Assembly: GCF_000283655.1 (NCBI RefSeq)
Contig: NC_016588.1
Location: 1-64,000 of the forward strand
Direction of reading: 5' to 3'
DNA: 64,000 nucleotides
DNA from: Azospirillum lipoferum 4B
GTDB taxonomy: Bacteria > Pseudomonadota > Alphaproteobacteria > Azospirillales > Azospirillaceae
Notes under the pieces: generated by a model
Seen by the model: the letters and a program-made list of their open reading frames with translations, nothing else
Told to the model about the DNA's origin: nothing
The model's database searches: none
Shown: piece by piece, positions 23,960 to 38,901 of the stretch
How positions within the stretch are numbered: position 1 is the stretch's first letter
Layout of the letters: each line of letters opens with the position of its first letter
Translations under genes and position numbers: made by a program

Positions 23960-24931
23960 TCAGGCGGATTGTCGCGCATTCCACCAGACGCATGTCCGCT
24001 CCAGGCCGTCGCGCAGCGGTGTCCTGGCGCGCCACCCGAGCGTCAGGCAGCGCGAGGCGTCCAGGCCTTTGCGCGGCATGCCGTCGGGCTTCTCCACGGC
24101 ATAGTGGAAGCCGCCGTCGTAACCGACCGCCGCGGCCACCATCTCCGTCAGTTCGGCGATGCTGACATCCTCGCCCGAGCCGACATTGACGATCTCTTCG
24201 CCGCTGTAACGCTCCATCAGGAAAACCAGGGCATCGGCGGCATCGTCCACATAGAGGAACTCGCGCCGCGGCCGGCCGGTCCCCCAGACCTCCACCGGCC
24301 CGGTCCCGGCCGCCTTCGCCGCCTGGATCTTGCGGATCAGGGCCGGCACCACATGGCTGGCGGCCAGGTCGAAATTGTCGCCGGGACCGTAGAGGTTGGT
24401 CGGGACGACGGCGATGAAGTCGCGGCCGTACTGGCGGCGATAGGCCTGGCACAGCTTGATGCCGGCGACCTTCGCGGTGGCATACCACTGGTTGGTCGGC
24501 TCGAAAGCGCCGGTCAGCAGGGAGTCCTCGACGATCGGCTGGTCGGCGAATCTGGGGTAGATGCAGGACGATCCGAGGAACATCAGCTTTTCCACCCCGG
24601 CCAGATGGGCGCCGTGGATGATGTTGGCCTCGATCGCCAGGTTGTCATAGAGGAATTCGGCCGGCCGGGTGTCGTTGGCCAGGATGCCGCCCACCGTGGC
24701 GGCGGCGACGAACACGGCTTGCGGGCGTTCGCGCAGCATCCAGGCCTCGACGTCGCCCTGGCGGCGCAGATCGACCGCACCGCGGCCGACGGTAAGCGGT
24801 TGCGCGCCTTCGGCCGTCAGCCGGCGGAGCAGGGCCGAGCCGACCATGCCCGTATGCCCCGCCACCCATACCCGCTTTCCGGCAAGCGGATACACCACCG
24901 GAGCCGCCTGCGTTCCAGTCGTGCTGTCCAT
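23960..24931 (-). CDS. GDP-L-fucose synthase-like epimerase/reductase, second copy
   Basis: A 323-aa short-chain dehydrogenase, strongly similar in motif order to the protein at 7574: VWVAGHTGMVG (NADP binding), FLGSSCIYPR, and WYATAKVAG with the catalytic Tyr near residue 150. AGGAAGGA before ATG 24931 is a strong ribosome site. Because a first fcl copy exists, this one may act on another GDP-4-keto sugar. Candidates are the 3,6-dideoxy sugar from the ColD-like enzyme (as ColC does) or an oxidised GDP-heptose (as the fcl-like reductase of the C. jejuni heptose pathway does). Sequence alone does not decide. It stands alone between two AT-rich gaps. Confidence 0.87.
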   Translation of the reverse strand: MDSTTGTQAAPVVYPLAGKRVWVAGHTGMVGSALLRRLTAEGAQPLTVGRGAVDLRRQGDVEAWMLRERPQAVFVAAATVGGILANDTRPAEFLYDNLAIEANIIHGAHLAGVEKLMFLGSSCIYPRFADQPIVEDSLLTGAFEPTNQWYATAKVAGIKLCQAYRRQYGRDFIAVVPTNLYGPGDNFDLAASHVVPALIRKIQAAKAAGTGPVEVWGTGRPRREFLYVDDAADALVFLMERYSGEEIVNVGSGEDVSIAELTEMVAAAVGYDGGFHYAVEKPDGMPRKGLDASRCLTLGWRARTPLRDGLERTCVWWNARQSA

Positions 24932-25363
24932 GGTGCATCCTTCCTGTCCGTCGGCATGCCGTTCGGCCGGGGGCGAATGCCGTTGGCCAGTAAAAGGAAA
25001 ATAACGACCCATTGTGCGCACCGCAATCCAAATGCCGCATCCAGGCGACCCGCCCAGAAGTGAGTATCCAAGTATGAGGAGGCATCTTCCGCGGCATCGG
25101 CGCGCCACCGATCCAAGAATGCGGAAGGACCATCCGCCGCATCGTCCCGGTTTCCACCGCCTCCACGGACGCCGTCGAGAAAGTTTTACAGTTTGATTAA
25201 GGATAATAAATAAAGAGAGAATCCACTCTCGCTTTCTCGATTCATTATTGATAAAAATTGATGTTTCCATTCGGCCCGCGGCGTAATATCAAAAGTGCAT
25301 GTCGGCTGCATGTCCTTTTTAGGAAAATATTCTGGCTTAACCCTCGCGCATCCCAGGGCTTCC
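24932..25363. other. Divergent intergenic region, AT-rich
   Basis: About 430 bases separate the minus-strand reductase from the plus-strand 25-37 kb block. The half from ~25180 to 25300 is strikingly AT-rich (TTTGATTAAGGATAATAAAT), with a short hairpin GAGAGAATCCACTCTC. It probably carries the promoter of the following block, but no sigma-70 pair with correct spacing could be assigned. No gene was recognised in it. Confidence 0.45.
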
Positions 25364-27415
25364 ATGATCAAGACAGAATTCAAAAGCAATGTTAAGAAGG
25401 CTCCTAAAGTTAGCTTTGTTCTTCTTGATTGGAAATGCCGGGAAAGTTTCCACTCCCTTGATTACTTGGCAGATCAGGATGTTCCGCGGCATGATTATGA
25501 AATCATCTGGATTGAGTACTACGCTCATAGGTCAAAAGAGATAGGCGATAAGATATCCGACTATAAGGGTAAGGGGCGTCCGGCGCCTGTTGACCTTTGG
25601 ATTATTATGAATATGCCGGATGCCCTATACTATCATAAACACCTAATGTACAATATTGGTATTGCAAAGAGTCGGGGTGATATTGTCATCATCTGTGATT
25701 CTGATGCGATGTTCACGAAATCCTTTGTTCGGACGGTGATCGAAACCTTTGAACGCACGCCTGAAATTGCCCTGCACTTTGACGAAGTGCGCAATTCCAA
25801 GCAGGATTTCTATCCTTTCAACTATCCGCCGTTCGAACTGCTGACCGGGGATGGGGCGATCAATTGGCGCGACGGCAAGACCACCGGGCTGTGGGATACC
25901 GAGGATCCGCTGCATAGCCGCAATTACGGGGCGTGCCTGTGCGCCAGGCGTTCCGACCTGATCGCCATCGGCGGCGCCGATGAACACATGGATTACCTTG
26001 GCCATGTCTGCGGCCCGTACGAACTGACCTTCCGCCTCGTGAACAAGGGCCTGAAGGAGGTCTGGCACGAAAGCGAATTTCTGTACCACACGTGGCATCC
26101 GGGATCGGATGGCGACTTCAACTACATCGGACCCACCGATGGCCGGCACATGTCCTCCACCGCACTCGAAGCGCTGGAGACCGGTCGCATCATGCCGCTC
26201 ACCGAGAATCCGGTCATCCGCCACGAGCGCGAAAACGGGGTGCCGCCGGCGAACGGCCAGTTCATCGATCCTGCCTGCCTGACGGCCTGGACGCAGGAGG
26301 AGGTGGCGAAGTCGCCCCGCTTCAAGCTCTTCAAGCGCGGCCAGGGCGGCACCAAGCTGGTGCGGGAACTGGCCACCTACAACATCCTGTCCTACGACGG
26401 CAAATTCTACGGCGTCCCGCATTCCCTGGGGCCGGTGGATCTGGCCAGGAAGGAGGATCGGGAAAAGCCGCAGATCGTCGAAGGTGCCTCGGCCGACGAA
26501 ATCGAGGCGCTTCTGGCCGGGGGCCCGCCCCCCGCTCCCGTCGCGGCGCTTCCTGTGCAGCAGCCCTCCCAACCCTCCAGACGGCGGGGCGTCCAGGCTC
26601 CTCCGGTTCTGGTCGGTATGGTCGGGCCTTTCAACGTGGTCTCCTATGACGACGCCTATTTCGGCGTTCCGACCTCGCTGGGGCCGGTCGACCTGGCGGA
26701 TCCGGCCCAGCGCGCCTTGCCGGAAATCCTGAAGGCCGCGACATGGAGCGACGTGGACTCCATGATCCGGGCGCAGCGCCTGATCCGGCTGGAGGTGGAG
26801 AGCCGTGCCCGGGAACAGATGCTGGAGCAGTTGCGGGCGGAACTTGCCGCCAAGGACGCGATGATCGCGGACTTCCTGGACACGATCACCGCCTTGCGCG
26901 GTGAAAGCCAGAGCTGGAATGAGGAACGCGAGCGCCTGCGTCGGGAGGTGTTCAGCTTGCAGTTCCGGTTGAACGGTGCCGAGCTGTTGGACTCGTTCAC
27001 GCCGACCGACATCGCGGAGCGCCGTGCCGACGGCATCCGCGTCACCGCCGACAAGCCGGTCGGCTGTTTCCTGCACGGCTCGCGCCTGTCGCTGGGCAAG
27101 GGCAAGTACACGCTCGACATCTGGGGCGCAAGGCAGCACGCGTCCGCAGCGGGTCTGCCGGTTTTGAATGTGGAATTGATCAGCAACGGCACGACCACCG
27201 TCGGGACGTTCAATACCGAGCACTTCGCCGAAACGGCCACGCTGGTCTCGCTGGTGTTCCAACTGAACGATGCGCCCACCGACGCCGGGCACGAGTTCGA
27301 AATCCGCCTCACCCATTATGGCCGTGTGGATCTGGTCGTCTCGAGGGTTCGGCTGCGCTTGATCTCCGATACGAGCGCAGCCTCCCCGGCGGGTCTTCAC
27401 AGACAGCACGCATGA
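25364..27415 (+). CDS. GT2-like glycosyltransferase with repeated SLGPVDL modules and C-terminal beta domain
   Basis: A 683-aa protein. Residues ~10-260 form a GT-A fold: VSFVLLDWKCRESFHSLDYL, then GIAKSRGDIVIICDSDAMF with a DSD metal-binding motif, and a galactosyltransferase-like YGACLCARRSDLIAIGGADE. Two copies of a ~45-residue module follow (near 339-384 and 422-467; core FYGVPHSLGPVDL and YFGVPTSLGPVDL). Then comes a coiled coil (~470-545) and a beta-rich end (CFLHGSRLSLGKGKYTLDIW) also seen in the 1127-aa protein. The first ~430 bases are AT-rich, unlike the rest of the gene, suggesting a mosaic origin. ATG 25364 starts the conserved part; an earlier in-frame ATG is less likely. Confidence 0.78.
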   Translation: MIKTEFKSNVKKAPKVSFVLLDWKCRESFHSLDYLADQDVPRHDYEIIWIEYYAHRSKEIGDKISDYKGKGRPAPVDLWIIMNMPDALYYHKHLMYNIGIAKSRGDIVIICDSDAMFTKSFVRTVIETFERTPEIALHFDEVRNSKQDFYPFNYPPFELLTGDGAINWRDGKTTGLWDTEDPLHSRNYGACLCARRSDLIAIGGADEHMDYLGHVCGPYELTFRLVNKGLKEVWHESEFLYHTWHPGSDGDFNYIGPTDGRHMSSTALEALETGRIMPLTENPVIRHERENGVPPANGQFIDPACLTAWTQEEVAKSPRFKLFKRGQGGTKLVRELATYNILSYDGKFYGVPHSLGPVDLARKEDREKPQIVEGASADEIEALLAGGPPPAPVAALPVQQPSQPSRRRGVQAPPVLVGMVGPFNVVSYDDAYFGVPTSLGPVDLADPAQRALPEILKAATWSDVDSMIRAQRLIRLEVESRAREQMLEQLRAELAAKDAMIADFLDTITALRGESQSWNEERERLRREVFSLQFRLNGAELLDSFTPTDIAERRADGIRVTADKPVGCFLHGSRLSLGKGKYTLDIWGARQHASAAGLPVLNVELISNGTTTVGTFNTEHFAETATLVSLVFQLNDAPTDAGHEFEIRLTHYGRVDLVVSRVRLRLISDTSAASPAGLHRQHA

Positions 27416-27478
27416 CGGGGCGGCTCTGCCGAGAGCCGGCCAGAAACAGATCATTCGCTTTCCAGCGGAGGGGACGGG

Positions 27479-27823
27479 GTGTCCAACAGGATGTTTGAGC
27501 AGCGTCTTGCCACGGTAGAGAGGCGGATGGCCGAACGAGACCGGCGGAACCAGGAGCTGTCGGCCCTGGTCGAAGAGGTGGGCGAGCAGAATCGGCTGCT
27601 CCGGCAGGTCTTGAGCGAACAGGACATGCGTATCCGGTCCCTGGAAGGCGCCTTGGCCGAACAGGCTCGCGTGCTTCAGGCCATCCGGGGGGAACGCGCG
27701 GATGCCGGCAGGCCGGCGGAGGGCGGCCCGGCTCTCCTCAGCCTGTCGGCCCGCGTTCAGCTGATCGACGATGCGCTGACCGACCTCCGCCTTGCTGTTT
27801 TGGAAAGGTCCGGCACCCGGTAG
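27479..27823 (+). CDS. Small coiled-coil protein
   Basis: A 114-aa protein, almost entirely a predicted heptad-repeat coiled coil (EQRLATVERRMAERDRRNQE, then LSALVEEVGEQNRLLRQVL). It starts from GTG 27479, preceded by GGAGGGG. It has no signal peptide, cysteine or catalytic motif. It sits between the modular glycosyltransferase, itself with a coiled coil, and the sulfotransferase/kinase fusion, and could be an oligomerisation partner for either. I do not recognise a family. Confidence 0.7.
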   Translation: MSNRMFEQRLATVERRMAERDRRNQELSALVEEVGEQNRLLRQVLSEQDMRIRSLEGALAEQARVLQAIRGERADAGRPAEGGPALLSLSARVQLIDDALTDLRLAVLERSGTR

Positions 27824-27860
27824 AGTGCCGCCGCCCGGTCATTCAGGCCGGGAGTGGCCG

Positions 27861-30401
27861 ATGAAAGAGAGCCGCATGTTTATCCATTTCGACCTGCCCC
27901 GTGCCGCCGGGGATTCGCTGATGGACTGTGTCGAGCGCGTCTATGGCGCGTCGCGGGTGCTGCATCTTGGACGCGGGCTTCGCTTCGATATGTCGTACGA
28001 AGCCCTGCTCAGCAAAACACCTGACGAACTTGAACTGATAAAGAACCACTACGGATGCGCAGTGACGAAGCATGCCTTCGCTCTGCACAAGATAATAGGG
28101 GTTCCGTATGTTGGTTTCGTTCGCAATCCGTTTGACTGGTATATTTCTTCATATTATTGGGCAAAAAAGAACAGCCTGGGGAACCCGTCTGAATTTTATG
28201 GATATATGATCGACAAGCATAATATGTCATTGGAGTATTTTGTTCACTGGCTTCATGACATAGGCCACGACAACAATCAGACCAAGAATATTTTCTACCT
28301 TTCAAAAAGCTATGCCAGCGTCCTGCCTCCGGATCCGGCGGACATCACTCTCGATGAGGCGAATTTCGCCCAGACCATCGAACTGACCGAGACCGCGTTT
28401 GCGGTTCTTGCGCCGACCGATCTGTTCGGTCGGGCGCTCTATGTCATGGGCATGCTGTTCGACTGGCCGGACCTGCCGCTGTGGCGGCTGCGCTCTTCCT
28501 CCAACTGGCGCGCCTCGGCGTCGATCCCCTACACGCTCGAGGACTTCGTGCGCGAGCGCAGCCCCTATGACTGGAACCTGTTCGCCACCGTGCGGAAGGG
28601 ATTCGAACAGCGTTATGCCGATGTTCTGGCGGCCCGCGCCGCCGAGATCGCGGACTACGACGCCTGCTCGCGGAATCCCGCGTGGCAGGACGCGATGCCG
28701 TTTCATGTCCGCGACCTTCCGGAACCTCTCCTGCAGGGCGTCCGCCTTCAGGCACCGCCGCCGCCCCGTGACCCGGTCGCCATCCCCGGCGCCCTGCGGG
28801 GGAACTGCATACCAGGGCTCAACCTGTATCTTCACGGCGTGGTCCATGGGCATTTCCTGCTGTCGCCCCGCCCGGACAGTCCGCCCTTCCTGGCCGTACC
28901 GCTGATCAGCCTGATCGACCGGATGGCCGCCCCGGAGCAGCTCTGGCCATTCTACGGCCCGGGCGTCCTGTTCGACCGGTCGCTGGACGGGCTCCGGCAA
29001 CGGCTCGAGGCGGGAGAGGTCCCGAGCCTGGTGGAGAGCCAGGGGGATCTCCAGATCTGGTTCTACCGGGGCGCGTACCGGTTCCTGGAGTGGACGGCCG
29101 GCACCGACATCGACGTGCTGTACAGCGATCCCGAGGGGGCGCTGAACGGCTCCCTCCATGCCACGGACTGGCCGACGGCCCGCCAGTTCTTCACGCTGTT
29201 CACCGATCCGTTCCAGCGGCAGCGGATCGACGGGTTCGGCATCGTCGAAGGGGTGGAGGGTGAGCCCTGGAGGGCCGAACCGACGGCCGGCGGACCGGCG
29301 GTCACCGCCCCGTCCCTGCTGCGGCTGCTCGAAGCGCTGCAGAGCAGCGGGCGCCTTTCCCTGCGGTCACCGCCGCCGTTCCTGATCGACAGCCTGACCG
29401 ACTACAATCTGGTCAAGTACCAGGGTCGGAACTATGGCGCGCACCAGGGGGGCGGGGATCTGGAAGACCTGCTGGCGGAGCCGGGGGAAAACCTCATCGA
29501 GGCTGCGACGCTGAAGGATGTCCGCCGGGCGATCATCGACCGCTGGCTCTCTCACCGGTCGCCGGATCCCCACCTGATCGAAACCTTGGGCGTGACCAAC
29601 ATCGTCCTGTTCCGGGACCGCTTCGTCGCGTTGCCGCAAGCCCTCGGACCCGTCGATCTGTCCGATCCCGCGACGTTCCACCTCCCCGGCGTGATCGTCA
29701 GCCGCAGCCGGACGCGCCTGCGGCATCTGGTCGCAACGGAAGCCGCCGGCCAGGGGGGGGACACGCAGGCGGGGACCGCGCCGGAATCGGGCGGCCGTCC
29801 GGCGCCCTTGCTGCCGGACGCGTCCGGAAAGGGGCGGCTGTTCTGGCTGACCGGTTTGTCCGGGGCCGGCAAGACGACGGTCGCCCTGCGCGTGTGTGCG
29901 CGGTTGCGGGCAGCCGGGCTGCCGGCGGTGCTGCTCGACGGCGACCGCTTGCGCGCCGCCATCGCCCCCGATGCCGGTCACAGCCCTGACCAGCGCCGCC
30001 AGTTGGCCCTTTCCTACGCCCGCCTGTGCCGGGAACTGACGGAGCAGGGCCTGGTCGTCGTCATCGCCACCATTTCAATGTTTCATGCAGTCCGCCAATG
30101 GAATCGCGAAAACATAGAAGGTTATCGCGAAATATATTTGCGCGTTCCGCTTGAACACCGCGCTGGTCGTGACCCGAAGGGCTTGTACCGCAACGCTGCT
30201 GTGGATATGGTCGGAATGGATACCTCCATTGAGGAGCCGGATCACCCCGATCTCGTAATTGACAATTACGGCACGATGACACCGGACGGCGCGGCCGACC
30301 TGATCTGGGACCGATTGATTGCGTCCGATGCCGCTCTGATCGGCTTATCGACTGCAGTCCCCAAAGACGGGGACTATAAAGAACCCCATACATCACAATA
30401 G
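27861..30401 (+). CDS. Fusion: sulfotransferase-like domain plus APS-kinase-like domain
   Basis: An 846-aa protein. The N-terminal ~280 residues resemble a sulfotransferase, with the 3'-phosphate-binding-like FVRNPFDWYISSYYW at residues 86-100. The middle is unassigned. Two SLGPVDL-type modules lie near 515-558 and 579-624. From ~660 a kinase domain has Walker A GLSGAGKTT, DGDRLR, ATISMFHAVRQWNREN and RDPKGLYRNA. That last pattern is the APS-kinase fold, but the Cys/Phe-rich assimilatory consensus is absent, and it looks more like the APS-kinase homologue of the C. jejuni MeOPN locus (Cj1415, a cytidine diphosphoramidate kinase). With the genes at 31197-35023 it would complete that pathway. 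GC content drops within 28000-28320 and 30070-30400. Start chosen for GGAG upstream of ATG 27861. Confidence 0.8.
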   Translation: MKESRMFIHFDLPRAAGDSLMDCVERVYGASRVLHLGRGLRFDMSYEALLSKTPDELELIKNHYGCAVTKHAFALHKIIGVPYVGFVRNPFDWYISSYYWAKKNSLGNPSEFYGYMIDKHNMSLEYFVHWLHDIGHDNNQTKNIFYLSKSYASVLPPDPADITLDEANFAQTIELTETAFAVLAPTDLFGRALYVMGMLFDWPDLPLWRLRSSSNWRASASIPYTLEDFVRERSPYDWNLFATVRKGFEQRYADVLAARAAEIADYDACSRNPAWQDAMPFHVRDLPEPLLQGVRLQAPPPPRDPVAIPGALRGNCIPGLNLYLHGVVHGHFLLSPRPDSPPFLAVPLISLIDRMAAPEQLWPFYGPGVLFDRSLDGLRQRLEAGEVPSLVESQGDLQIWFYRGAYRFLEWTAGTDIDVLYSDPEGALNGSLHATDWPTARQFFTLFTDPFQRQRIDGFGIVEGVEGEPWRAEPTAGGPAVTAPSLLRLLEALQSSGRLSLRSPPPFLIDSLTDYNLVKYQGRNYGAHQGGGDLEDLLAEPGENLIEAATLKDVRRAIIDRWLSHRSPDPHLIETLGVTNIVLFRDRFVALPQALGPVDLSDPATFHLPGVIVSRSRTRLRHLVATEAAGQGGDTQAGTAPESGGRPAPLLPDASGKGRLFWLTGLSGAGKTTVALRVCARLRAAGLPAVLLDGDRLRAAIAPDAGHSPDQRRQLALSYARLCRELTEQGLVVVIATISMFHAVRQWNRENIEGYREIYLRVPLEHRAGRDPKGLYRNAAVDMVGMDTSIEEPDHPDLVIDNYGTMTPDGAADLIWDRLIASDAALIGLSTAVPKDGDYKEPHTSQ

Positions 30402-30420
30402 AATAGGGACTTTGAAGCAT

Positions 30421-31188
30421 ATGCGCGGTCATGGTGATTTCACCGGGTTGGCAGAGAATTACTCGAAATACCGCCCGACTTATTCAGCGACGGTCAGGGA
30501 TGCGCTGATCGGCATGCTGCCGAAGCCGGCCGGGGAGATCGAGGCAGCCGACATCGGCGCCGGCACCGGCATCTGGACCCGCCTCGTGGCCGAGCGGGTC
30601 CGCCATGTCACGGCGGTCGAGCCCAACGACGACATGCGCCGGCTCGGCATCGCCGATTCCGCCGGTCACCGGATCGAATACCGTGTCGGCTCCGGCGAGC
30701 AGACCGGCCTTGCCGATGCCTCGGTGGACATGGTCAGCATGGCGTCGTCCTTCCACTGGGTCGATTTCGAGCGCGGCCTGGCCGAGTTCCACCGCATCCT
30801 GCGTCCGGAAGGCCGCTTCGTCGCGCTGTGGAACCCGCGACTGATCGATGCCAATCCCCTGCTGGTCGAGATCGAGGCGGAGATCACCCGGCTGGCTCCG
30901 GAAGTCAAGCGGGTGTCGTCCGGCAATTCCGGCATCACCGAGACCCTGACCGAGCGGCTGTGGGCCAGCCGGCAGTTCGACGACGTGGTTTATCTGGAGG
31001 GCCGCCATTCCATCGACCAGACCCCCGAACAGTATCTGGGCGTCTGGAATTCGGTGAACGACGTGCGCCACCAGCTCGGCCCCGATCGCTGGACTGCCTT
31101 CATGGCCTTCGTCGAGGCGCGGATCGCCGGCCTTGACGTGATCACCACGACCTATCGCACCCGTGCCTGGTCTGCACGCCGTCGGTGA
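30421..31188 (+). CDS. Class I SAM-dependent methyltransferase
   Basis: A 255-aa methyltransferase with AADIGAGTGIWTRLVAER (SAM motif near residue 43), VTAVEPNDDM, MVSMASSFHWVDFERGL and ILRPEGRFVALWNPR, the Methyltransf_11/UbiE-like pattern. It lies between the kinase/sulfotransferase fusion and the glutamine-kinase-like gene. C. jejuni carries two methyltransferases (Cj1419, Cj1420) in the equivalent place, proposed to act on the phosphoramidate. By position, this is the best candidate for O-methylation of a phosphoramidate group; that is inference. ATG 30421 is preferred over a TTG three codons earlier because AGGGA is correctly spaced. Confidence 0.85.
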   Translation: MRGHGDFTGLAENYSKYRPTYSATVRDALIGMLPKPAGEIEAADIGAGTGIWTRLVAERVRHVTAVEPNDDMRRLGIADSAGHRIEYRVGSGEQTGLADASVDMVSMASSFHWVDFERGLAEFHRILRPEGRFVALWNPRLIDANPLLVEIEAEITRLAPEVKRVSSGNSGITETLTERLWASRQFDDVVYLEGRHSIDQTPEQYLGVWNSVNDVRHQLGPDRWTAFMAFVEARIAGLDVITTTYRTRAWSARRR

Positions 31189-31196
31189 GACTGCCC

Positions 31197-33551
31197 ATGG
31201 ACACCTCCGCCTTACCGCTCCGGATCGCCTTCGGCAGCAAAGCCGAAACCCTGGAGCGCCTCGCGCCGCATCTGAGGACGGCGCGCGTCCTCGATCTGGT
31301 TCGCTTCCGGGCCGTCGATTGGAACGCGGGCGGCATGGAGGCGATCCTCGACCGGATCGCCGCCACGCCGTGGGGCAGGCGGGGGCCTCTGATCGTCCGC
31401 TCCTCCGCGGCGGCGGAGGACCGGGAGGGGCAGTCCCTGGCCGGGCATTTCGTGTCGATCGGCAACGTCGATCCGGCCGGGCTGCCGGCCGCCGTCGCCG
31501 AGGTGGCGGCCTCCTTCGGGGACGAGCCGGTACCGGCCGACCAGATCTTCGTCCAGCCCATGCTGACGGCCGCCATGAGCGGCGTCGCCTTCACCCGGGA
31601 TCCCAACACCGGCGCCCCCTATCTGATCGTCAATTACGAGGAGGGCGGCGACACCGCCGCGGTCACCGGCGGCCACGCCGCCGAATTGAAGACCTTCGTC
31701 TACTGGAAGGGCGCCACGGTGCCGTGCCCGCCCCCCCTCGACCGGGTGGTGGCGCTCGCCGGCGAATTGGAAGGGCTGCTCGGAGAGGAAAGTCTCGACA
31801 TCGAGTTCGCCTTCTCGCCGACAGGCGAGCTGTACCTGTTCCAGGTGCGGCCGCTGTCCGCCGCCGCCGGAACGGCCGTCGGCACCGACGAGCACCGGCC
31901 GCTGCTGGAAGCCATCGCCCAGAAGATCGCCCAGGCCAATCGGCCGCACCCCTACCTGCGCGGCCGCCGCACCCTGTACGGCGTCATGCCCGACTGGAAC
32001 CCGGCCGAAATCATCGGCATCCGGCCGCGGCCGCTGGCGCTGTCGCTGTACCGGCAGCTGGTGACCGACAGCGTCTGGGCCTACCAGCGCCACAATTACG
32101 GCTACCGGAACCTGCGCAGCTTTCCGCTGATGCGGTCCTTCCATGGGTTGCCGTACATCGACGTCCGCCTCAGCTTCAATTCCTTCATTCCGGGCGACGT
32201 GCCTGACACGCTCGCCGACCGTCTGGTGGACTGCTACATCGACCAGCTCGCGGCGGCACCGGTGCTCCACGACAAGGTCGAGTTCGAGATCGTCTTTTCC
32301 TGCTACACCTTCGACCTCGACACCCGTCTGCAACGTCTGCGCGGCTTCGGCTTCTCGGAGCGCGATCTCGAGGAATTGACCCACAGCCTGCGCCGGCTGA
32401 CCAACCGGGTCATTCACCGTGAAACCGGCTTGTGGCGCAACGACAGCAAGAAGATCGGGATCCTGGAGGAGCGGCAGCGGACCATCCGCAGCACCGACAT
32501 GGACATCGTCAGCCGCATCTATTGGCTGATGGAGGATTGCAAGCGCTACGGCACCCTGCCTTTCGCCGGTTTGGCCCGCGCCGGCTTCATCGCCGTCCAG
32601 ATGCTGAAATCGCTGGTGGCGGTCGGCGCGATCGAGCCGCAGCAGTACGATGCCTTCATGACCAGCCTGGAGACCGTCAGCGGCCGCATGACGCGCGACC
32701 TGCGCGCCCTGTCCCGCTCGGAATTCCTGGAGAAGTACGGGCACCTGCGCCCCGGGACCTACGATATCCTGTCGCCGCGCTACGACGAGGATCCGGAACG
32801 CTACCTCGGTGCCGAGCATGGGGCCGGTCAGCATGACGAGGGCGCGGTGCCGACCTTCGCCCTGTCTCTGCCCCAGATGCGCCGGATCGACGCCCTCCTG
32901 AACCAGCACTCCCTGGAAATGGACGTGGTCAGCCTGTTCGACTTCTTCCAGGCCGGCATCCAGGGCCGCGAGCATTCGAAATTCGTCTTCACCCGTTCGC
33001 TGAGCGAGGTGCTGTCGCTGCTGACCCGCCTGGGCGACCGCTATGGACTGTCGCCGGACGACATGTCCTACTTCGACGCCTCTCTTATCGACGATCTCTA
33101 CGCGTCGAGTTGCGACATCGAGGCGACGCTGCGCCACAGCATCAGCCAGGGCCGCGCCCGCTATGCGGAAACCCAGCGCATCGTGCTGCCGCCGCTGATC
33201 AGCCAGCCCGAGGAGGTCTGGGCTTTCCACATTCCTCCAACCGAACCCAACTTCATCACCCAGCGGACGGTGGAGGGGCCCGTGCGGTCCCACAAGGCGC
33301 CGGCGTCGGAGCTGAAGGGGGCGGTGGTGGTAATCCCCAGCGCCGATCCGGGCTTCGACTGGATCTTCTCCCACGGCATCGGCGGCTTCATCACCGCCTA
33401 TGGCGGGGTAAATTCCCACATGGCCATCCGCGCCGGCGAACTGAACCTTCCTGCGGTGATCGGAGCCGGGGAGACGCTGTTCAACCAGTGGAAGGACAAC
33501 CGTCGCCTGCGCATCGACTGCGCATCCCGCCGGGTGGATGTCCTGCAATGA
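31197..33551 (+). CDS. PEP synthase-like enzyme; candidate L-glutamine kinase
   Basis: A 784-aa protein of the PEP synthase/pyruvate phosphate dikinase superfamily. The N-terminal ATP-grasp part has GPLIVRSSAAAEDREGQSLA, GVAFTRDPNTGAPYL and LDIEFAFSPTGELYLFQVRP. The C-terminal swivelling domain has GGVNSHMAIRAGELNLPAVIG with the phosphorylatable His near residue 741. The pyruvate-binding barrel of true PEP synthase is missing, replaced by a helical middle. That architecture and size fit Cj1418, which phosphorylates the amide nitrogen of glutamine with ATP. Neighbours match Cj1417 and Cj1416. A rifampicin phosphotransferase-like role is the main alternative. ATG 31197 or GTG 31185 (overlapping the previous stop) may be used. 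Confidence 0.85.
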   Translation: MDTSALPLRIAFGSKAETLERLAPHLRTARVLDLVRFRAVDWNAGGMEAILDRIAATPWGRRGPLIVRSSAAAEDREGQSLAGHFVSIGNVDPAGLPAAVAEVAASFGDEPVPADQIFVQPMLTAAMSGVAFTRDPNTGAPYLIVNYEEGGDTAAVTGGHAAELKTFVYWKGATVPCPPPLDRVVALAGELEGLLGEESLDIEFAFSPTGELYLFQVRPLSAAAGTAVGTDEHRPLLEAIAQKIAQANRPHPYLRGRRTLYGVMPDWNPAEIIGIRPRPLALSLYRQLVTDSVWAYQRHNYGYRNLRSFPLMRSFHGLPYIDVRLSFNSFIPGDVPDTLADRLVDCYIDQLAAAPVLHDKVEFEIVFSCYTFDLDTRLQRLRGFGFSERDLEELTHSLRRLTNRVIHRETGLWRNDSKKIGILEERQRTIRSTDMDIVSRIYWLMEDCKRYGTLPFAGLARAGFIAVQMLKSLVAVGAIEPQQYDAFMTSLETVSGRMTRDLRALSRSEFLEKYGHLRPGTYDILSPRYDEDPERYLGAEHGAGQHDEGAVPTFALSLPQMRRIDALLNQHSLEMDVVSLFDFFQAGIQGREHSKFVFTRSLSEVLSLLTRLGDRYGLSPDDMSYFDASLIDDLYASSCDIEATLRHSISQGRARYAETQRIVLPPLISQPEEVWAFHIPPTEPNFITQRTVEGPVRSHKAPASELKGAVVVIPSADPGFDWIFSHGIGGFITAYGGVNSHMAIRAGELNLPAVIGAGETLFNQWKDNRRLRIDCASRRVDVLQ

Positions 33552-34186
33552 CGACGGTCCGGCCCGTGGCCGCGCGCCTGATCGCCGTCAGTCAGCGGGT
33601 GGACGTGATCGCCGGCCGCAATGAGCGGCGCGACTCCCTGGATCAGCGGTGGACCGGCTTCCTGGACGCCTGCGGCCTGCTGCCCGTGGCGATGCCCAAC
33701 ACGGCGTCGCCCGCTCTTGCGGCGGCCTGGCTGGAGGAGGTGGCTCCCGCCGGCATCCTGTTGACCGGCGGCAACGATCTGGCGGCCTATGGCGGCGACG
33801 CCCCCGAACGCGACGCCGTGGAAGCCCTGCTGATCGAGCACGCGGTCACCCGGCGCATCCCGCTGATGGCCGTCTGCCGGGGCCTGCAGATGCTGATGCA
33901 CCATTTCGGCGCCGGGCTGGAACGGGTGACGGGCCATGCCGGCACCGATCATCCGGTCGTCCTGGACGACGGCGCGACGGACACCGTGAATTCCTATCAC
34001 AACTGGAGCTTCACGAGCGTTCCGCCCGGTTTCACCGCCTGGGCGACCGCGCCCGACGGCGTGGTCGAGGCGGTCCGCCACGACACGCTGCCACTGTTCG
34101 GCATGCTCTGGCATCCCGAACGCAATGCCCCCTACCGCGCCGTGGACCTCGATCTGGTCCGCCGTCATTTCGGGGGTGATCGGTAA
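33548..34186 (+). CDS. Class I glutamine amidotransferase-like gamma-glutamyl hydrolase; candidate gamma-glutamyl-CDP-amidate hydrolase
   Basis: A 212-aa protein of the peptidase C26/PuuD-like group. The nucleophile is Cys110 in MAVCRGLQML, with the His189 and Glu191 of the triad in MLWHPERNAPY. ILLTGGNDLAAYGG forms the oxyanion region. It overlaps the kinase gene by ATGA, showing tight coupling. In C. jejuni the homologous Cj1417 releases glutamate from CDP-glutamine to give cytidine diphosphoramidate; the same role here follows from its place between the glutamine-kinase-like and nucleotidyltransferase genes. Without the context it would be annotated as a gamma-glutamyl-GABA hydrolase. Confidence 0.86.
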   Translation: MTTVRPVAARLIAVSQRVDVIAGRNERRDSLDQRWTGFLDACGLLPVAMPNTASPALAAAWLEEVAPAGILLTGGNDLAAYGGDAPERDAVEALLIEHAVTRRIPLMAVCRGLQMLMHHFGAGLERVTGHAGTDHPVVLDDGATDTVNSYHNWSFTSVPPGFTAWATAPDGVVEAVRHDTLPLFGMLWHPERNAPYRAVDLDLVRRHFGGDR

Positions 34187-34236
34187 CGGGGTCTTGCTGC
34201 ACCGTCCACGGGTCCGCCGCATCCGCGCCTTCCCGC

Positions 34237-34267
34237 TTTCCCTGAATTTGGTTTTCCCTGAATTTGG
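34237..34267 (+). repeat. Direct repeat upstream of the nucleotidyltransferase gene
   Basis: The 15-base sequence TTTCCCTGAATTTGG occurs twice with a 16-base period (34237-34251 and 34253-34267). The second copy runs into the GGAG ribosome site of the next gene. It is probably a slippage duplication; a regulatory role is possible but unsupported. Confidence 0.8.
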
Positions 34268-34276
34268 AGTGCTTTC

Positions 34277-35023
34277 GTGAAAGCGATCATCCTTGCCGCC
34301 GGGCGTGGCAGCCGCATGAAGGCCATGACCGAGGACCGGCCGAAATGTCTGGTCGAAATCGCCGGGCGCAGCCTGCTGGACTGTCAGCGTGCCGCCCTGA
34401 CCGGTGCCGGCGCCGGCCCGTTGGCCGTGGTGCGTGGCTATCGCGGCGAGGCGTTCGAGGGACGCGGGCTGACCCTGTTCGACAATCCCCGCTGGGCCGA
34501 AACCAACATGGTCATGTCGCTGGTCCAGGCGGCCCCGTGGCTGAGCGCCGAACCGTGCCTCGTCAGCTACGCCGATATCTTCTACCCGGCGGAGACGGTG
34601 CGCCGGCTGATGGCGGCCGAAGGCGACATCGTCATCAGCTACGATCCCGACTGGCTGGCCCTGTGGCAGTCGCGCTTCGCCGATCCACTGGTCGACGCCG
34701 AGAGCTTCCTGCTCGACGCGACCGGCCGGGTCGTCGACATCGGCCGCAAGGTCCAGAGCCTCGACGAGATCCAGGGCCAGTACATGGGCCTGCTGAAATT
34801 CACCCCCGCCGGCTGGGCCCAGGTCACCGGCTATCTCGACGGGCTGGAACCGGCGGCGCGCGACAAGCTGGACATGACCGGCCTGCTGTCGCGGCTGATC
34901 GCCGCCGGCGTGGCCATCCGGGCGGTGCCGAGCGCCCCCGGCTGGGGCGAGGTCGATTCCCAAAGCGATCTCGACCATTACATCGCAGAGGTGGCTGCCG
35001 GGCGCGTCGCGCTGCCGGTCTGA
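34277..35023 (+). CDS. Nucleotidyltransferase (LicC-like); candidate CTP:phosphoglutamine cytidylyltransferase
   Basis: A 248-aa NTP-transferase. The N terminus has ILAAGRGSRM (nucleotide loop, residues 5-14), Lys23 in RPKCLVEIAG, the metal-binding D in LVSYADIFYP, and a C-terminal WGEVDSQSDLDHY motif shared with phosphocholine and phosphosugar cytidylyltransferases. It starts from GTG 34277 after GGAG. In C. jejuni the equivalent Cj1416 couples glutamine phosphate to CTP. The preceding hydrolase and kinase genes make the same reaction likely here. Alternative: a sugar-1-phosphate or phosphocholine cytidylyltransferase. Confidence 0.87.
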   Translation: MKAIILAAGRGSRMKAMTEDRPKCLVEIAGRSLLDCQRAALTGAGAGPLAVVRGYRGEAFEGRGLTLFDNPRWAETNMVMSLVQAAPWLSAEPCLVSYADIFYPAETVRRLMAAEGDIVISYDPDWLALWQSRFADPLVDAESFLLDATGRVVDIGRKVQSLDEIQGQYMGLLKFTPAGWAQVTGYLDGLEPAARDKLDMTGLLSRLIAAGVAIRAVPSAPGWGEVDSQSDLDHYIAEVAAGRVALPV

Positions 35024-35093
35024 GGCCGCTGCACGGACACGGTCCACCGCCCCGCCCCGGAAGCCCCTGCCTCGATCAAGGAACAAGACGGTT

Positions 35094-36158
35094 ATGAGTC
35101 GGCGTTTCATCGACCATGGAGACGGCACCATCACCGATGCCGAGACCGGCCTGATGTGGCGCGCCGATGGCGGCACGCCCGATCTGCCGGGCATGCCGGG
35201 CGGGCGGAAGCCATGGTCCGGTCCCCTCTCCGCGCCGCCCGCCGACCTGCCGACTCTGCGCACCGGCTGCTATGGGCCGCTGCCCGATCTGGACCTCTCC
35301 GGCCGGCCGGTCGGCTATGCGGTGTTCGACTATATCGACGCGCTGAACGCCGCGGCCTTCGCCGGTTACGCGGACTGGCGCCTGCCCAACGTCAACGAAC
35401 TGGCCAGCCTGATGAACGAGGCGGTGCCGCAAAGTCATCTCTGGCTGATGGAGAACGGCTTCCGCAACATCGAAACCCATTGCAACTTCTGGAGCTCGAC
35501 CACCTGCCACGGTCATCCCGAACAGGCGTGGCACGTCCACTTCACCAACAGCGGCAACGTCCACACCAGCTGCAAGGCGTGGTGCGCCCATCATGTGCTG
35601 CCGGTGCGTGGCCTGAACAGCGGCCCGCGCCGCCTTCTTCAGACCGGGCAGACCCTGTGCTACAGCGCCGATCTGGTGCCGCAGCCCCTGCCGGACGGCA
35701 GCGGGCGCGGCCAGGATGGCGACCTGCGCCTGGGCACGCCCCGGCCGGCGGACCGCTTCGAGCTGCGCGACGGCGGGGCGTCCGGCCGGGTGGTGGTCGA
35801 CCGCTTCCTGGGGCTGGCCTGGGCATCGCCGCTGAATCTGGGCATGCCGTGGGACGCCGCCGTGGAGATGGTGCCGCGATGCTATGCCGGGTATGGCGGG
35901 CTGGACGGCTGGCGCCTGCCGGAGCGGGAGGAACTGCGCTCGCTCACCGACTATGGCTGTTCCAACCTGCTGGGCCTGATGCAACAGGCCGGTTTCGAGG
36001 ATGTGCGGAACGTCGATTACTGGACCGGAACACCCTACGCCAACGATCCCGACCGCTACGCATGGTCGTTCGGCCTCGGATGGGGACTTTACGGACGCGA
36101 GCGGGCCGGGTTCCGGGCGGGGGTGTGGCCGGTCTGCCCTTTCCCGCAGCCGGTGTAG
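35094..36158 (+). CDS. DUF1566 (Lcl-like) domain protein, two tandem halves
   Basis: A 354-aa protein made of two divergent repeats of the DUF1566/Lcl C-terminal domain. Each half opens with a DxxTGLMW-like or DRFLGLAW segment, contains WRLPNVNELASL or WRLPEREELRSL, and ends with a WSSTT/YWTGT core and a VLPVRG or VWPVC strand. Related domains occur in surface proteins, including collagen-like adhesins, but no signal peptide is visible here. It has no known role in sugar modification. Its insertion between two genes of the modification block suggests it belongs functionally, perhaps as an acceptor or binding protein. Confidence 0.82.
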   Translation: MSRRFIDHGDGTITDAETGLMWRADGGTPDLPGMPGGRKPWSGPLSAPPADLPTLRTGCYGPLPDLDLSGRPVGYAVFDYIDALNAAAFAGYADWRLPNVNELASLMNEAVPQSHLWLMENGFRNIETHCNFWSSTTCHGHPEQAWHVHFTNSGNVHTSCKAWCAHHVLPVRGLNSGPRRLLQTGQTLCYSADLVPQPLPDGSGRGQDGDLRLGTPRPADRFELRDGGASGRVVVDRFLGLAWASPLNLGMPWDAAVEMVPRCYAGYGGLDGWRLPEREELRSLTDYGCSNLLGLMQQAGFEDVRNVDYWTGTPYANDPDRYAWSFGLGWGLYGRERAGFRAGVWPVCPFPQPV

Positions 36159-37327
36159 GAGAAGGCGCTGCCTGCACCGGCGCCGCTGCGCCGTCCCTGG
36201 CCATCCTGACCTCCCCGCCCTTTGCCTGCGGAGTGGCCTGGCTGGTCAACGTGCTGCTGGAATTGGGCATCCGCACCACGCATTGGGGCACGGCAAGGGG
36301 CGCGGGCGGCGGCAGCCCCTGGCGGGAATGCGGCGACGGCTGGACGCTGGATGAGCCGGCGCTGAGCCTGCTCAAATGGCATCTGCCCATCCTGCACCAC
36401 GACGGGCCGCTGCGCTTCCGCGACGGCCTGGAGGTGGTGTGGGAGCACCGTCTCGATCTTGCCCGCGAACCGGGTGAGGCCGTCATCCTCTATCTGCGCG
36501 ACCCGCGCGACGCCATCCATTCGCTGTACCGGCGCGACTACGCCCACGCCCTCGGCTACCACGCCTATCTCGACCGCCCGGACGTCTGGCCCGACCATTT
36601 CCCGAACCTGTTCTTTTTGCCGCCGCCCGAGACCTATCTGCTGTTCACCCTGTTCTGGCTGACCGTCGGCGAGACGGTGCCGCTGCTGACCGTCACCTTC
36701 GAAGGCATGCGTGCCGATCCGGTCGGGACGGTACGCCGCGTGCTCGCCCAGCTGGGGCAGACGCGGCCGGATGACGGGATCGTCCGCGCGCTGGAACGCT
36801 CCAGCTTCCATGCGGCACGCCAGGCCATGCTGCGCACCAGCGCCGAGCAGGGAACGGAGCGCCTGACCGCGACCAAGGGTGAAGTCGGCGAATGGCGGAC
36901 CACCCATGACGACGCGGCCCTCGCCCGCTTCGCCCGGCCGCTCGCCCGGTTCGAAGCGCTGTTGGCCGACCTGCCGGCCGCCGAGGCAACGTGGCAGGCC
37001 GAGGCCATTCCACGCGATCCCTTCGGTTGGCTGGAGGAGGGCGCTCCGGCCAATCTGGCCGCGGTTCTGGACGCGGTGCCGGCGGTGGCCGGCAGGCCGG
37101 CGGCGCAGCTCTCCGCCCACGCCGCGGTGGCGGCCGGCTGGTTTACCGCCCAGGCAGCCGGAGGACCGGACTTCACACCGCCGCTGCCGCGGCGCCTGTT
37201 CCTGCGCTTCTACGCCTTTCTTCTTGAAGGACTGGACTCCGCCCCCATCGACACCCTGCTCCGTTCCCGCCACATCGACCGCATCCACGGACTTTGCCGG
37301 GAGATGGTGGGAGCGATGCCGGAGTGA
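36125..37327 (+). CDS. Sulfotransferase-family protein
   Basis: About 400 aa. The N-terminal ILTSPPFACGVAWLVNVLLE takes the place of the 5'-phosphosulfate loop, and LYLRDPRDAIHSLYRRDY near residue 121 matches the 3'-phosphate-binding RxxxDxxxS pattern. The C-terminal ~120 residues are unassigned. No ATG precedes the conserved loop in frame; GTG 36125, overlapping the end of the DUF1566 gene, is the best start. True sulfation would need PAPS. Transfer of another group from a 3'-phosphonucleotide, such as phosphoramidate from 3'-phospho-CDP-amidate, is an alternative favoured by its neighbours. Confidence 0.75.
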   Translation: MAGLPFPAAGVGEGAACTGAAAPSLAILTSPPFACGVAWLVNVLLELGIRTTHWGTARGAGGGSPWRECGDGWTLDEPALSLLKWHLPILHHDGPLRFRDGLEVVWEHRLDLAREPGEAVILYLRDPRDAIHSLYRRDYAHALGYHAYLDRPDVWPDHFPNLFFLPPPETYLLFTLFWLTVGETVPLLTVTFEGMRADPVGTVRRVLAQLGQTRPDDGIVRALERSSFHAARQAMLRTSAEQGTERLTATKGEVGEWRTTHDDAALARFARPLARFEALLADLPAAEATWQAEAIPRDPFGWLEEGAPANLAAVLDAVPAVAGRPAAQLSAHAAVAAGWFTAQAAGGPDFTPPLPRRLFLRFYAFLLEGLDSAPIDTLLRSRHIDRIHGLCREMVGAMPE

Positions 37328-37404
37328 CCGCTTCCGCCGGCCACCGAGCGAACGCCAAAATTAGGAATTATGTCTTGATATACCGGTCAGAAAGCGGATA
37401 AAGC

Positions 37405-37426
37405 TCCTATATTGCGCCATATAGGA
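37405..37426. promoter_or_regulatory. Perfect inverted repeat before the tail-fibre-like operon
   Basis: TCCTATAT and ATATAGGA form a perfect 8-base dyad with a 6-base loop, ending just before the AAGGAAG ribosome site of the gene at 37443. It sits in an AT-rich 115-base gap with TTGATA upstream (37374-37379). It could be an operator, part of a promoter (TATATT) or an mRNA hairpin controlling translation; function not shown. Confidence 0.5.
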
Positions 37427-37442
37427 AAGGAAGCGGACCACC

Positions 37443-37775
37443 ATGAAGGGATTGCTCCTCGCCACCGACGACATGGGGCGGTGTCTGGACGTGATCGGCG
37501 TGTCGGACAGCCGCCACACCCTGGTGATGGCCCCAGGGCAGGGCAAGACGCTGCCGGTGCCGGCCGGCGCCACGATGATGCTGGTCAACGCCACGGCCAA
37601 TGTCTGGGTTCAGTATGACGGGCCGGCGGCCGTGCCGGTGGTGGACGATCTCGGCGGCGGGGCGCCGGAACTCAATCCGGGGCCGCGTTTCATCAAGGGG
37701 ATCGCCGCCATCGGCATCAGCGCGGCACAGGCGTGCGAAGTGGGCGTGACGTTCTATCGGGGAGGCAGCCTGTGA
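37443..37775 (+). CDS. Small hypothetical protein of a tail-fibre-like operon
   Basis: A 110-aa beta-rich protein with a very good ribosome site (AAGGAAGCGG). It has two strands with GLLLATDDMGRCLDVIGVSD and a Gly/Ala-rich centre. I do not recognise a family. Its stop overlaps the GTG start of the next, fibre-like gene, so it is coupled to it. By position it may be a short baseplate or fibre-adaptor protein, which is inference. Confidence 0.7.
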   Translation: MKGLLLATDDMGRCLDVIGVSDSRHTLVMAPGQGKTLPVPAGATMMLVNATANVWVQYDGPAAVPVVDDLGGGAPELNPGPRFIKGIAAIGISAAQACEVGVTFYRGGSL

Positions 37776-38689
37776 CCTCACGCTACAGTTTCGCGCCCGT
37801 CGGCGCGTCGACCGAGCGGCCGGTCTTCACCGGCACGGTGACTCTGCCGGCCGGCACCGCGGCGGCGCCGGGATTGGTCTTCGCCGGCGACGTCGCCACC
37901 GGCTTCTACCACGCCGCGCCCGGAACCGTCGGCCTGGCGGGAGCCTTGCAGGTCGACAGTCATCCAGTCTGGCATGCCGGGAACGATGGCGCCGGATCGG
38001 GCTGCGACGCCGACCTGCTCGACGGACAGCAGGGCAGCTATTACCAGCCGGCCGCCCCCAACCTGGGCGCGCTTGCCGGACTGGACACCGCCGTCGGGTT
38101 GGTCGAGCAGACCGGCTCCACCCTGTTCGCCAAGCGCCCGCTCGGCACCGGATCGGCTGGCGCGGTCCCCACCCTGGGCGACGCCGACGCCCGCTATGCC
38201 CGGCTGAGCGGAGCGACCTTCAGCGGCGCCTTGCGGAACACCGGACAGCCCGCCTTCCTGGCCTTCCTGTCGTCCCAGCAACTGAACGCAACGGGGGATG
38301 GAACGCTCTACACCATCCTGTGCGATGCCGAGGTTTTCGACCAGACCAACGCCCACAACCCGGCAACCGGGATCTTCACCGCACCGCTGACCGGTTTCTA
38401 CCGGTTCGACTGCACGGTCTGCCTGATCGTCGGCGCGACGCACACGCGCGCCGAACTGATCCTGGAGACGAGCAACCGCCTGCATTTTCTTGGTCAGATC
38501 AACGCAGCGGCGCTGCGGGACGCGACCGGGAACGCGGTGATCATGACCGGCTCCCGCCTCGTGGACATGGACGCCGGGGACACCGCATTCATGCGGGTCA
38601 AGGTTTCGAACGGCACCAAAGGCGTGTCGGTGTTCGGCACGACGGCGGGTGCGATCTACACGTCTTTCTCAGGGAGGCTGGAATGCTGA
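37772..38689 (+). CDS. Tail-fibre-like protein with C1q-like C-terminal domain
   Basis: A 305-aa protein. Residues ~70-95 carry the VWHAGNDG and DADLLDGQ motifs that recur in phage tail fibres and related bacterial proteins. Around 145 there is DADARYARLSGATFSGAL, another fibre repeat. The C-terminal ~135 residues look like a C1q/TNF jelly roll (GIFTAPLTGFYRF), a trimerising, ligand-binding fold. There is no signal peptide. The GTGA overlap with the upstream stop shows coupling. It may be part of a contractile-injection or tailocin relic, or a self-assembling surface adhesin. Confidence 0.78.
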   Translation: MTSRYSFAPVGASTERPVFTGTVTLPAGTAAAPGLVFAGDVATGFYHAAPGTVGLAGALQVDSHPVWHAGNDGAGSGCDADLLDGQQGSYYQPAAPNLGALAGLDTAVGLVEQTGSTLFAKRPLGTGSAGAVPTLGDADARYARLSGATFSGALRNTGQPAFLAFLSSQQLNATGDGTLYTILCDAEVFDQTNAHNPATGIFTAPLTGFYRFDCTVCLIVGATHTRAELILETSNRLHFLGQINAAALRDATGNAVIMTGSRLVDMDAGDTAFMRVKVSNGTKGVSVFGTTAGAIYTSFSGRLEC

Positions 38690-38901
38690 GCGACCATCAG
38701 CGCGCCGTGCTGGCCGACATCGTCGTGGATCCGGACGCGTGGGCCGCCCATGTTCTGGATGAATTCGGGCCGGAGGCCGGCATGGCCCACCTGGAGGCCA
38801 AGGTCGCCCGGGCGGCCCCGGTGTACGAGGCCGCCCGCCGGACTCTGGGGTCCGCCTACCGAACGCGAGCCGAGCGCACCGCCTTGCCCGGCGGACCCTG
38901 A
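38683..38901 (+). CDS. Small hypothetical protein (tail-fibre operon, third gene)
   Basis: A 72-aa acidic, helical protein (LSDHQRAVLADIVVDPDAWA, then HVLDEFGPEAGMAHLEAKVA). It overlaps the end of the fibre-like gene by seven bases and is preceded by AGGGAGG, an excellent ribosome site. Small genes of this kind often follow fibre genes as chaperones or assembly factors, but no specific family is recognised. Confidence 0.68.
   Translation: MLSDHQRAVLADIVVDPDAWAAHVLDEFGPEAGMAHLEAKVARAAPVYEAARRTLGSAYRTRAERTALPGGP

Follow-up and report, generated by a model that had tools for sequence, protein, structure and literature searches.

The subject of this analysis is a block of five consecutive, intact open reading frames (ORFs), all on the forward strand, that occupies positions 27861-35023 of the window, the 64,000-nucleotide stretch of contig NC_016588.1 of Azospirillum lipoferum 4B that was analysed (Table 1). 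The products belong, in gene order, to the Pfam classes APS_kinase (PF01583), Methyltransf_11, PPDK_N with PEP-utilizers, Peptidase_C26 and NTP_transf_3, where APS stands for adenosine 5'-phosphosulfate and PEP for phosphoenolpyruvate. The preliminary description of this DNA had recognized here four enzyme classes of an O-methyl phosphoramidate (MeOPN) pathway, known from the capsule of Campylobacter jejuni and running through cytidine diphosphate (CDP) derivatives, together with a methyltransferase. The ORFs, their coordinates and the ATGA overlap at 33548 are confirmed, each enzyme class is recovered by profile search, and the MeOPN-type reading is supported overall.

Table 1. Features of the candidate phosphoramidate gene block and of two sulfotransferase-type genes nearby (aa, amino acids)
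Feature	Positions	Strand	Remarks
APS-kinase-like/sulfotransferase-fold fusion gene	27861-30401	+	846 aa, intact ORF
Sulfotransferase-fold domain of fused protein, candidate phosphoramidate transferase	27861-28640	+	aa 1-260
Middle part of fused protein, short repeat	28641-29810	+	phmmer link to 25295-27415 protein, E 3e-9
APS-kinase-like domain, predicted cytidine diphosphoramidate 3'-kinase, mpnD / Cj1415 type	29829-30317	+	aa 657-819
Methyltransferase gene; class I S-adenosylmethionine (SAM) methyltransferase, candidate phosphoramidate O-methylase	30421-31188	+	255 aa, intact ORF; Methyltransf_11 3.8e-18
Glutamine-kinase-type gene; candidate L-glutamine kinase, mpnA / Cj1418 type	31197-33551	+	784 aa, intact ORF; ATP-binding domain, central part, C-terminal phospho-His domain (His741)
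Hydrolase gene; gamma-glutamyl-CDP-amidate hydrolase type, mpnB / Cj1417	33548-34186	+	212 aa, intact ORF, ATGA overlap with 31197 gene; NF045546 best family
Cytidylyltransferase gene; phosphoglutamine cytidylyltransferase type, mpnC / Cj1416 (predicted substrate)	34277-35023	+	248 aa, GTG start, intact ORF; NTP_transf_3 6e-19
STA, sulfotransferase-type gene, candidate phosphoramidate transferase	36125-37327	+	Sulfotransfer_1 8.7e-8; start uncertain, GTG 36125
STB, sulfotransferase-type gene, candidate phosphoramidate transferase	39818-40552	-	Sulfotransfer_1 2.4e-17 on enclosing ORF

The protein encoded at 31197 matches the NCBIfam family NF004508, which is titled 'hypothetical protein', over its full length with 931.8 bits (cut-off 501), compared with 50.2 bits at best for the PEP synthase models in the NCBIfam profile search (cut-off 883). 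On these scores, the identity of the protein as a PEP synthase or pyruvate water dikinase is rejected, and the possibility raised in the preliminary description, that the best hits would be to PEP synthase, does not materialize. His741, Arg68 and the motif YGVMPDWNP (261-269) are unchanged across 32 aligned sequences. A search of the PDB yields no close entry, the best being 5fbs (E 3e-6), and none of the 14 control genomes contains a protein above the NF004508 cut-off. Judged by its sequence, the protein is supported as a predicted glutamine kinase of the mpnA type.

A scan of the species-genome collection with this protein retrieved 173 relatives, and the analysis kept the 80 best matches, which are 47-60% identical to it over the best segment. 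Because these are the best of the 173 matches to the window's own kinase, the 80 loci are biased towards close relatives, and because some of them come from metagenome-assembled genomes (MAGs) or short contigs, gene absences are partly due to truncation. As read from the sequence records, the loci, many of them in MAGs, fall into about 10 phyla: Pseudomonadota, Planctomycetota, Acidobacteriota, Bacillota, Verrucomicrobiota, Cyanobacteriota/Sericytochromatia, Nitrospirota, Spirochaetota, Balneolota and Kapaibacterium. The preliminary description had pointed to the pathway in an alphaproteobacterium; the set is not peculiar to this organism and recurs in many phyla. Cassette genes were called by phmmer with the window proteins as queries (E < 1e-8), and the hydrolase is found in 79 of the 80 loci, the cytidylyltransferase in 78, the APS-kinase-like gene and the methyltransferase in 71 each, and all five genes in 68. 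The order glutamine kinase-hydrolase-cytidylyltransferase is kept in 74 loci and the exact order of the window, with the APS-kinase-like gene and the methyltransferase in front, in 51. Since the set is found again in 68 of the 80 fetched loci, the five-gene grouping is not due to chance. Among the genomes sampled, the glutamine kinase family is uncommon: with centre genomes counted, it occurs in 14 of the 289 genomes from the class, in 14 of the 398 from the phylum and in 1 of the 299 from the phylum to which Paenibacillus L063 belongs; in the genus, it is present in 5 of 25 genomes. Viral contigs gave no DNA match to six exact back-translated patterns, a search that would miss distant copies.

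For the hydrolase, the best NCBIfam family is NF045546 (gamma-glutamyl-CDP-amidate hydrolase), with 106.9 bits at a cut-off of 250 and 56.1 bits for the next family. The same family comes out on top in all five hydrolases tested, the other four (from L083, L081, L087 and L055) scoring 59.6-128.6 bits, all below the cut-off. Cys110, His189 and Glu191 are at least 95% conserved among 87 sequences, a set that, like the 81 sequences of the kinase tree described below, includes duplicates (L003=L093, L004=L082 and L005=L013). The protein encoded at 34277, next to the hydrolase, has the LicC/GlmU-like fold of cytidylyltransferases, its PDB relatives include the CTP:phosphocholine cytidylyltransferase 1jyk, and its relatives are those counted in 78 of the 80 cassettes. 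Three parts of the cassette (glutamine kinase, hydrolase and cytidylyltransferase) also appear on a contig of an uncultured Prochlorococcus (L049, 77-2389); this is a MAG with the match at the end of the contig, so that truncation and contamination are possible.

The APS-kinase-like domain (PF01583 match at aa 658-801) lies at the C-terminus of the 27861 product, where the preliminary description had placed it, although the fusion with an N-terminal sulfotransferase-fold domain was not part of that description. The generic annotation of the cassette genes in Azospirillum ramasamyi ('PEP-utilizing enzyme', 'gamma-glutamyl-GABA hydrolase', 'adenylyl-sulfate kinase'; GABA, gamma-aminobutyric acid) would fit a cluster for sulfation, in which a true APS kinase makes 3'-phosphoadenosine 5'-phosphosulfate (PAPS) and the 31197 product is a PEP-synthase-like enzyme of another function. 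Several sulfotransferase-fold neighbours are in line with this, as is the score of the kinase domain in the broad subfamily NF004041 'adenylyl-sulfate kinase' (135.6 bits, cut-off 127). The domain, however, stays under the cut-off of the apsK equivalog TIGR00455 (111.3 bits, cut-off 138.7), and a tree of 81 cassette kinases and 27 canonical APS kinases separates the two groups with zero misplaced sequences (support 0.787), the window domain being in the cassette clade. The 27 canonical sequences are those with loci fetched from cassette-bearing genomes, a subset of those found, and the best-scoring domain of each protein was used, as CysNC fusions carry another P-loop domain. In 35 cassette genomes, the PF01583 scores of canonical copies are mostly 166-240 bits and those of cassette copies mostly 75-130, with a few intermediate values (G235, G351). 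More than one APS kinase match is present in 27 of the 35; the single match (E <= 1e-10) in each of the other eight lies beside the glutamine kinase in seven, G215 being the exception. Sulfation would, furthermore, leave a gamma-glutamyl hydrolase and a CTP transferase without reason in 78-79 of the 80 loci, and it is at odds with the 932 bits of the 31197 product in NF004508 against 50 for PEP synthase; altogether, it appears very improbable. An assimilatory APS kinase (CysC) identity of the domain is rejected, given its position outside the canonical clade and under the TIGR00455 cut-off. The separation from assimilatory APS kinases that the preliminary description looked for thus holds for the clade and the equivalog but not for the broad subfamily. 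L028, L029 and L033 each have a single ORF that encodes both the APS-kinase-like domain and the glutamine kinase. The set is also found on plasmid p2 of Azospirillum sp. TSA2s (L094), where the 'adenylyl-sulfate kinase' is encoded by a gene of its own and the genes other than the glutamine kinase lie on the strand opposite to it.

Homology and genomic context together indicate, with a probability of about 0.85, that the block is an mpnABCD-type phosphoramidate-donor cassette, with the steps up to 3'-phospho-CDP-phosphoramidate. The glutamine kinase would phosphorylate the amide nitrogen of L-glutamine, the cytidylyltransferase would convert the product to gamma-glutamyl-CDP-amidate, the hydrolase would cut off the glutamate to give CDP-phosphoramidate, and the APS-kinase-like domain would phosphorylate the 3'-OH of the latter; these are the steps of the C. 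jejuni pathway, which we take to be those of Cj1418, Cj1416, Cj1417 and Cj1415, respectively. The sulfotransferase-fold domain, and probably also the STA and STB products, would then read the 3'-phosphate of the donor in the way the 3'-phosphate of PAPS is read and move the phosphoramidate to a glycan hydroxyl, with the release of cytidine 3',5'-bisphosphate, and the 30421 methyltransferase would add the O-methyl group.

In C. jejuni, according to excerpts of the literature (papers are cited in this form throughout), Cj1415-Cj1418 turn glutamine, ATP and CTP into CDP-phosphoramidate 3'-phosphate (PMC11800397). The gene table of PMC7901785 lists, in this order, mpnD (170 aa), mpnC (253), mpnB (200), mpnA (779), two methyltransferases (253 and 257) and an MeOPN transferase of ~610-640 aa. 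The 31P signal of MeOPN is given as 14.05 ppm (PMC7901785) and the signal of its O-methyl group as about 3.7 ppm (PMC3907429). The Azospirillum block shares with this locus the four enzyme classes, similar sizes, the order glutamine kinase-hydrolase-cytidylyltransferase and a methyltransferase just before mpnA. The differences are in the position of the APS-kinase-like gene, which in C. jejuni, counted from the transferase end, follows two methyltransferases, glutamine kinase, hydrolase and cytidylyltransferase, whereas in Azospirillum it stands in front of methyltransferase, glutamine kinase, hydrolase and cytidylyltransferase; in its fusion behind a sulfotransferase-fold domain; in the presence of one methyltransferase rather than two; and in the host and the glycan.

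The methylation step is a matter of its own. The 71 cassette methyltransferases form two score groups, 23 window-like and 48 distant, and the C. jejuni gene tables likewise show a methyltransferase adjoining mpnA (PMC7901785). The preliminary description counted Cj1419/1420 among the makers of the capsule modification; in the excerpt, these genes have no assigned function because their knockouts changed nothing in the capsule (PMC11800397). Because they are not established MeOPN methylases, we infer, rather than conclude, that the 30421 methyltransferase carries out the O-methylation. The identity of the two C. jejuni methyltransferases, tabulated as 33% although the 104/257 given in the same table amounts to 40% (PMC7901785), suggests that they are paralogues, and redundancy could then, in our own interpretation, mask knockout effects. 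In C. jejuni 81-176, the putative capsule methyltransferase CJJ81176_1419 and the MeOPN transferase CJJ81176_1435 are both required for the serum resistance of one phasotype (PMC13317227), which we are inclined to count for a link of the methyltransferase to the pathway.

The sulfotransferase fold binds a 3'-phosphorylated nucleotide, and its usual motifs are a 5'-phosphosulfate-binding (5'-PSB) Lys at the sulfate site and a 3'-phosphate-binding (3'-PB) Arg/Ser. Residues 1-260 of the 27861 product match this fold structurally across most of the domain, and 6 of the 7 rows of the fused-domain family show the 3'-PB pattern R-x-P-x(5-8)-S. Where the 5'-PSB Lys would stand, the fused domain of the window has Arg, its distant relatives have N, G or another residue, and STB has other residues; the Arg is compatible with either donor and may do the same job. 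A CysQ-like 3',5'-bisphosphate nucleotidase gene is found in 13 of the 80 loci, in 11 of them between hydrolase and cytidylyltransferase (the TIGR01331 cut-off is exceeded in 2 of 3 tested); the same search found none in the window. Because the domain is fused to the kinase that would add the 3'-phosphate and keeps the 3'-phosphate motif, and because some cassettes include a 3',5'-bisphosphate nucleotidase gene, a role of the sulfotransferase fold in phosphoramidate transfer can be proposed, which we put at about even odds. The middle part of the fused protein gave no match in a Pfam search. It has in common with the glycosyltransferase encoded at 25295-27415 a short repeat of the approximate form N-[LI]-V-x-Y-...-YG-x-P-x2-LGPVDL, recognized by eye; phmmer also links the two proteins.

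The resulting scheme runs parallel to PAPS-dependent sulfation, with an APS-kinase-related 3'-kinase, sulfotransferase-fold transferases and, in the 11 cassettes mentioned, a CysQ-like gene; it differs in that the cassette kinase is outside the canonical clade, the predicted donor is a cytidine phosphoramidate and the 5'-PSB Lys is replaced. If the parallel is general in bacteria, phosphoramidate glycosylation would employ a relative of APS kinase as the 3'-kinase, a sulfotransferase fold for transfer and a CysQ-type nucleotidase for the clearing of cytidine 3',5'-bisphosphate, the 27861 product would be a self-contained kinase-transferase fusion, and glycans with P-N bonds would occur in ~10 phyla, a generalization that could equally turn out right or wrong.

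The neighbourhoods of the cassettes bear on this proposal. Neighbour genes were predicted with a home-made gene finder, which missed the kinase in 6 of the 80 loci. Pfam searches covered 108 same-strand genes out of 132 upstream candidates, and 86 genes picked from among 139 downstream and 48 internal ones. In the upstream sample, taken directly ahead of the cassettes, Sulfotransfer_3 occurs most often of all Pfam families (14), followed by Sulfotransfer_1 (10); the downstream and internal sample contains 4 Sulfotransfer_3 genes. Across the 35 genomes, 10 of the 97 Sulfotransfer_3 matches, in 8 genomes, lie no more than 15 kb from the glutamine kinase, compared with 0.68 expected, an expectation that ignores contig ends, and the L063 genome was chosen after its Sulfotransfer_3 gene was seen; the remaining 27 genomes have none within 15 kb, and 12 of the 35 lack Sulfotransfer_3 matches altogether. 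Every Sulfotransfer_3 match of the genome is at the cassette in G338 (1 of 1), G343 (1 of 1), G348 (2 of 2) and G235 (2 of 2). As for the two separate genes of the window, relatives of STA adjoin cassettes in Nitrospira and Rhodocyclaceae MAGs, and STA is present in G001, an Azospirillum relative; the 18 kb of A. ramasamyi sequence that was read contains no match. An iterated STB model, which also captures STA, matched 21 of 95 scanned sequences, window included; at the position of STB, both G001 and A. ramasamyi have a different sulfotransferase type.

By our own family models, 35 of the 80 loci carry a sulfotransferase-fold gene, 31 a TagF-like gene, 4 both and 18 neither (L030, in genome G338, is counted as 'neither', yet Pfam finds a sulfotransferase gene next to the cassette). 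The two types avoid each other (4 both, 31 + 27 single, 18 neither; Fisher p 8e-6, kinship ignored), but less markedly so without the 17 Pseudomonas loci (p 0.008). The transferase is not universal because 31 of the 80 loci have a TagF-like protein in its place or beside it. This brings in a variant in which the cassette makes the donor as proposed, whatever has the sulfotransferase fold works as an ordinary PAPS sulfotransferase that happens to lie in the same glycan island, and the phosphoramidate is transferred by another protein encoded elsewhere, perhaps a glycosyltransferase or one of TagF type. Apart from the TagF-like neighbours, the variant is favoured by the canonical APS kinases that the Azospirillum relatives G001 and G014 possess in addition to the cassette copy and by the Arg at the usual sulfate-site Lys, which need not mean a new donor. 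It also draws on the type A flagellin glycan of Clostridioides difficile (CD0241-CD0244), where a cytidylyltransferase and the TagF-like CD0244 are discussed with a CDP-linked phospho-group (PMC10714395). The TagF-type cassettes share this pairing of cytidylyltransferase and TagF-like protein, but the C. difficile donor is CDP-threonine, not a phosphoramidate, and a glutamine kinase is not named in the excerpt. The fusion to a divergent rather than a canonical kinase speaks against ordinary sulfotransferases, as do G338, G343 and G348, in which the Sulfotransfer_3 genes are only at the cassette and no second APS kinase match was found at E <= 1e-10. We consider this variant a serious possibility, with a somewhat less than even chance.

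Several observations weigh against the phosphoramidate donor and its transfer by the sulfotransferase fold: the hydrolase scores below the NF045546 cut-off (106.9 vs 250), the kinase domain of the window passes that of the 'adenylyl-sulfate kinase' subfamily NF004041, the likeness to Campylobacter rests on published gene sizes and order rather than on sequence alignment, the Cj1419 and Cj1420 knockouts had no visible effect on the capsule in the excerpt (PMC11800397), the AlphaFold2 (AF2) model of the transferase domain has low confidence (a pLDDT, or predicted local distance difference test, value of 60), our family models find no sulfotransferase-fold gene nearby in 45 of the 80 loci, a TagF-like protein is present instead or in addition at 31 of the 80, and, where a canonical APS kinase exists (G001, G014), the sulfotransferases could form true sulfate esters.

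The cassette belongs to an island of surface-glycan genes on an Azospirillum plasmid. Plasmid NZ_CP029835 of A. ramasamyi is 92.9% identical to 27000-36500 (97% covered), G001, from the same genus, is 96.3% identical to 22826-38893 in the stretch read, and the surroundings in A. ramasamyi encode GDP-L-fucose synthase, glycosyltransferases, tetratricopeptide repeat (TPR) proteins, a DegT aminotransferase and WavE, as well as a peptidase-domain ATP-binding cassette (ABC) transporter with an HlyD partner. The last two would suit a donor whose target is not a surface glycan but, for instance, a small molecule or protein that is secreted, and in three Pseudomonas loci (L024, L026 and L027), the cassette lies just downstream of flgK/flgL-type genes, where a flagellin glycan may be the acceptor. 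The many sugar-enzyme neighbours (GDP-L-fucose synthase, several glycosyltransferases, WavE and DegT aminotransferase) argue against such a use, which we regard as unlikely. On the 3' side of the cassette, Lcl_C (DUF1566) and C1q-like domain genes (35094-36158 and 37772-38689) possibly encode surface or secreted proteins. Further on, in 38893-40743, the window differs from both G001 and A. ramasamyi, and the flanks align; each version contains a sulfotransferase-type gene, and that of the window adds a histidine-phosphatase gene (39147-39725).

The pathway as such is already known from Campylobacter; what is new is the sulfotransferase-fold fusion and its proposed donor logic. Among the papers listed in searches of the open-access literature, we saw none that describes this gene set in an organism other than Campylobacter or that reports sulfotransferase-fold phosphoramidate transferases. 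A search there for Azospirillum with phosphoramidate gave no paper with either word in the title or abstract, and one for phosphoramidate, sulfotransferase and Campylobacter gave none on phosphoramidate transfer by title; the mention of phosphoramidate in the excerpt of PMC10269466 is a cited C. jejuni phage paper. A 2022 review, as excerpted, still terms the glutamine kinase C. jejuni-specific (PMC9561416). Phosphoramidate without a methyl group has been reported chemically in the lipopolysaccharide (LPS) of Xanthomonas campestris and Shewanella MR-4 (cited in PMC3907429; PMC8042644), that is, as a P-N group on a surface glycan outside Campylobacter.

P-N bonds are rare in biology, and, if the proposal is true, phosphoramidate-decorated glycans would have been widely overlooked, soil bacteria included. 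The proposal also suggests a reason for the 3'-phosphate of the donor as well as the identity of the proteins that transfer the group, and the clusters with a single methyltransferase, such as that of Azospirillum, allow a clean test of the O-methylase question.

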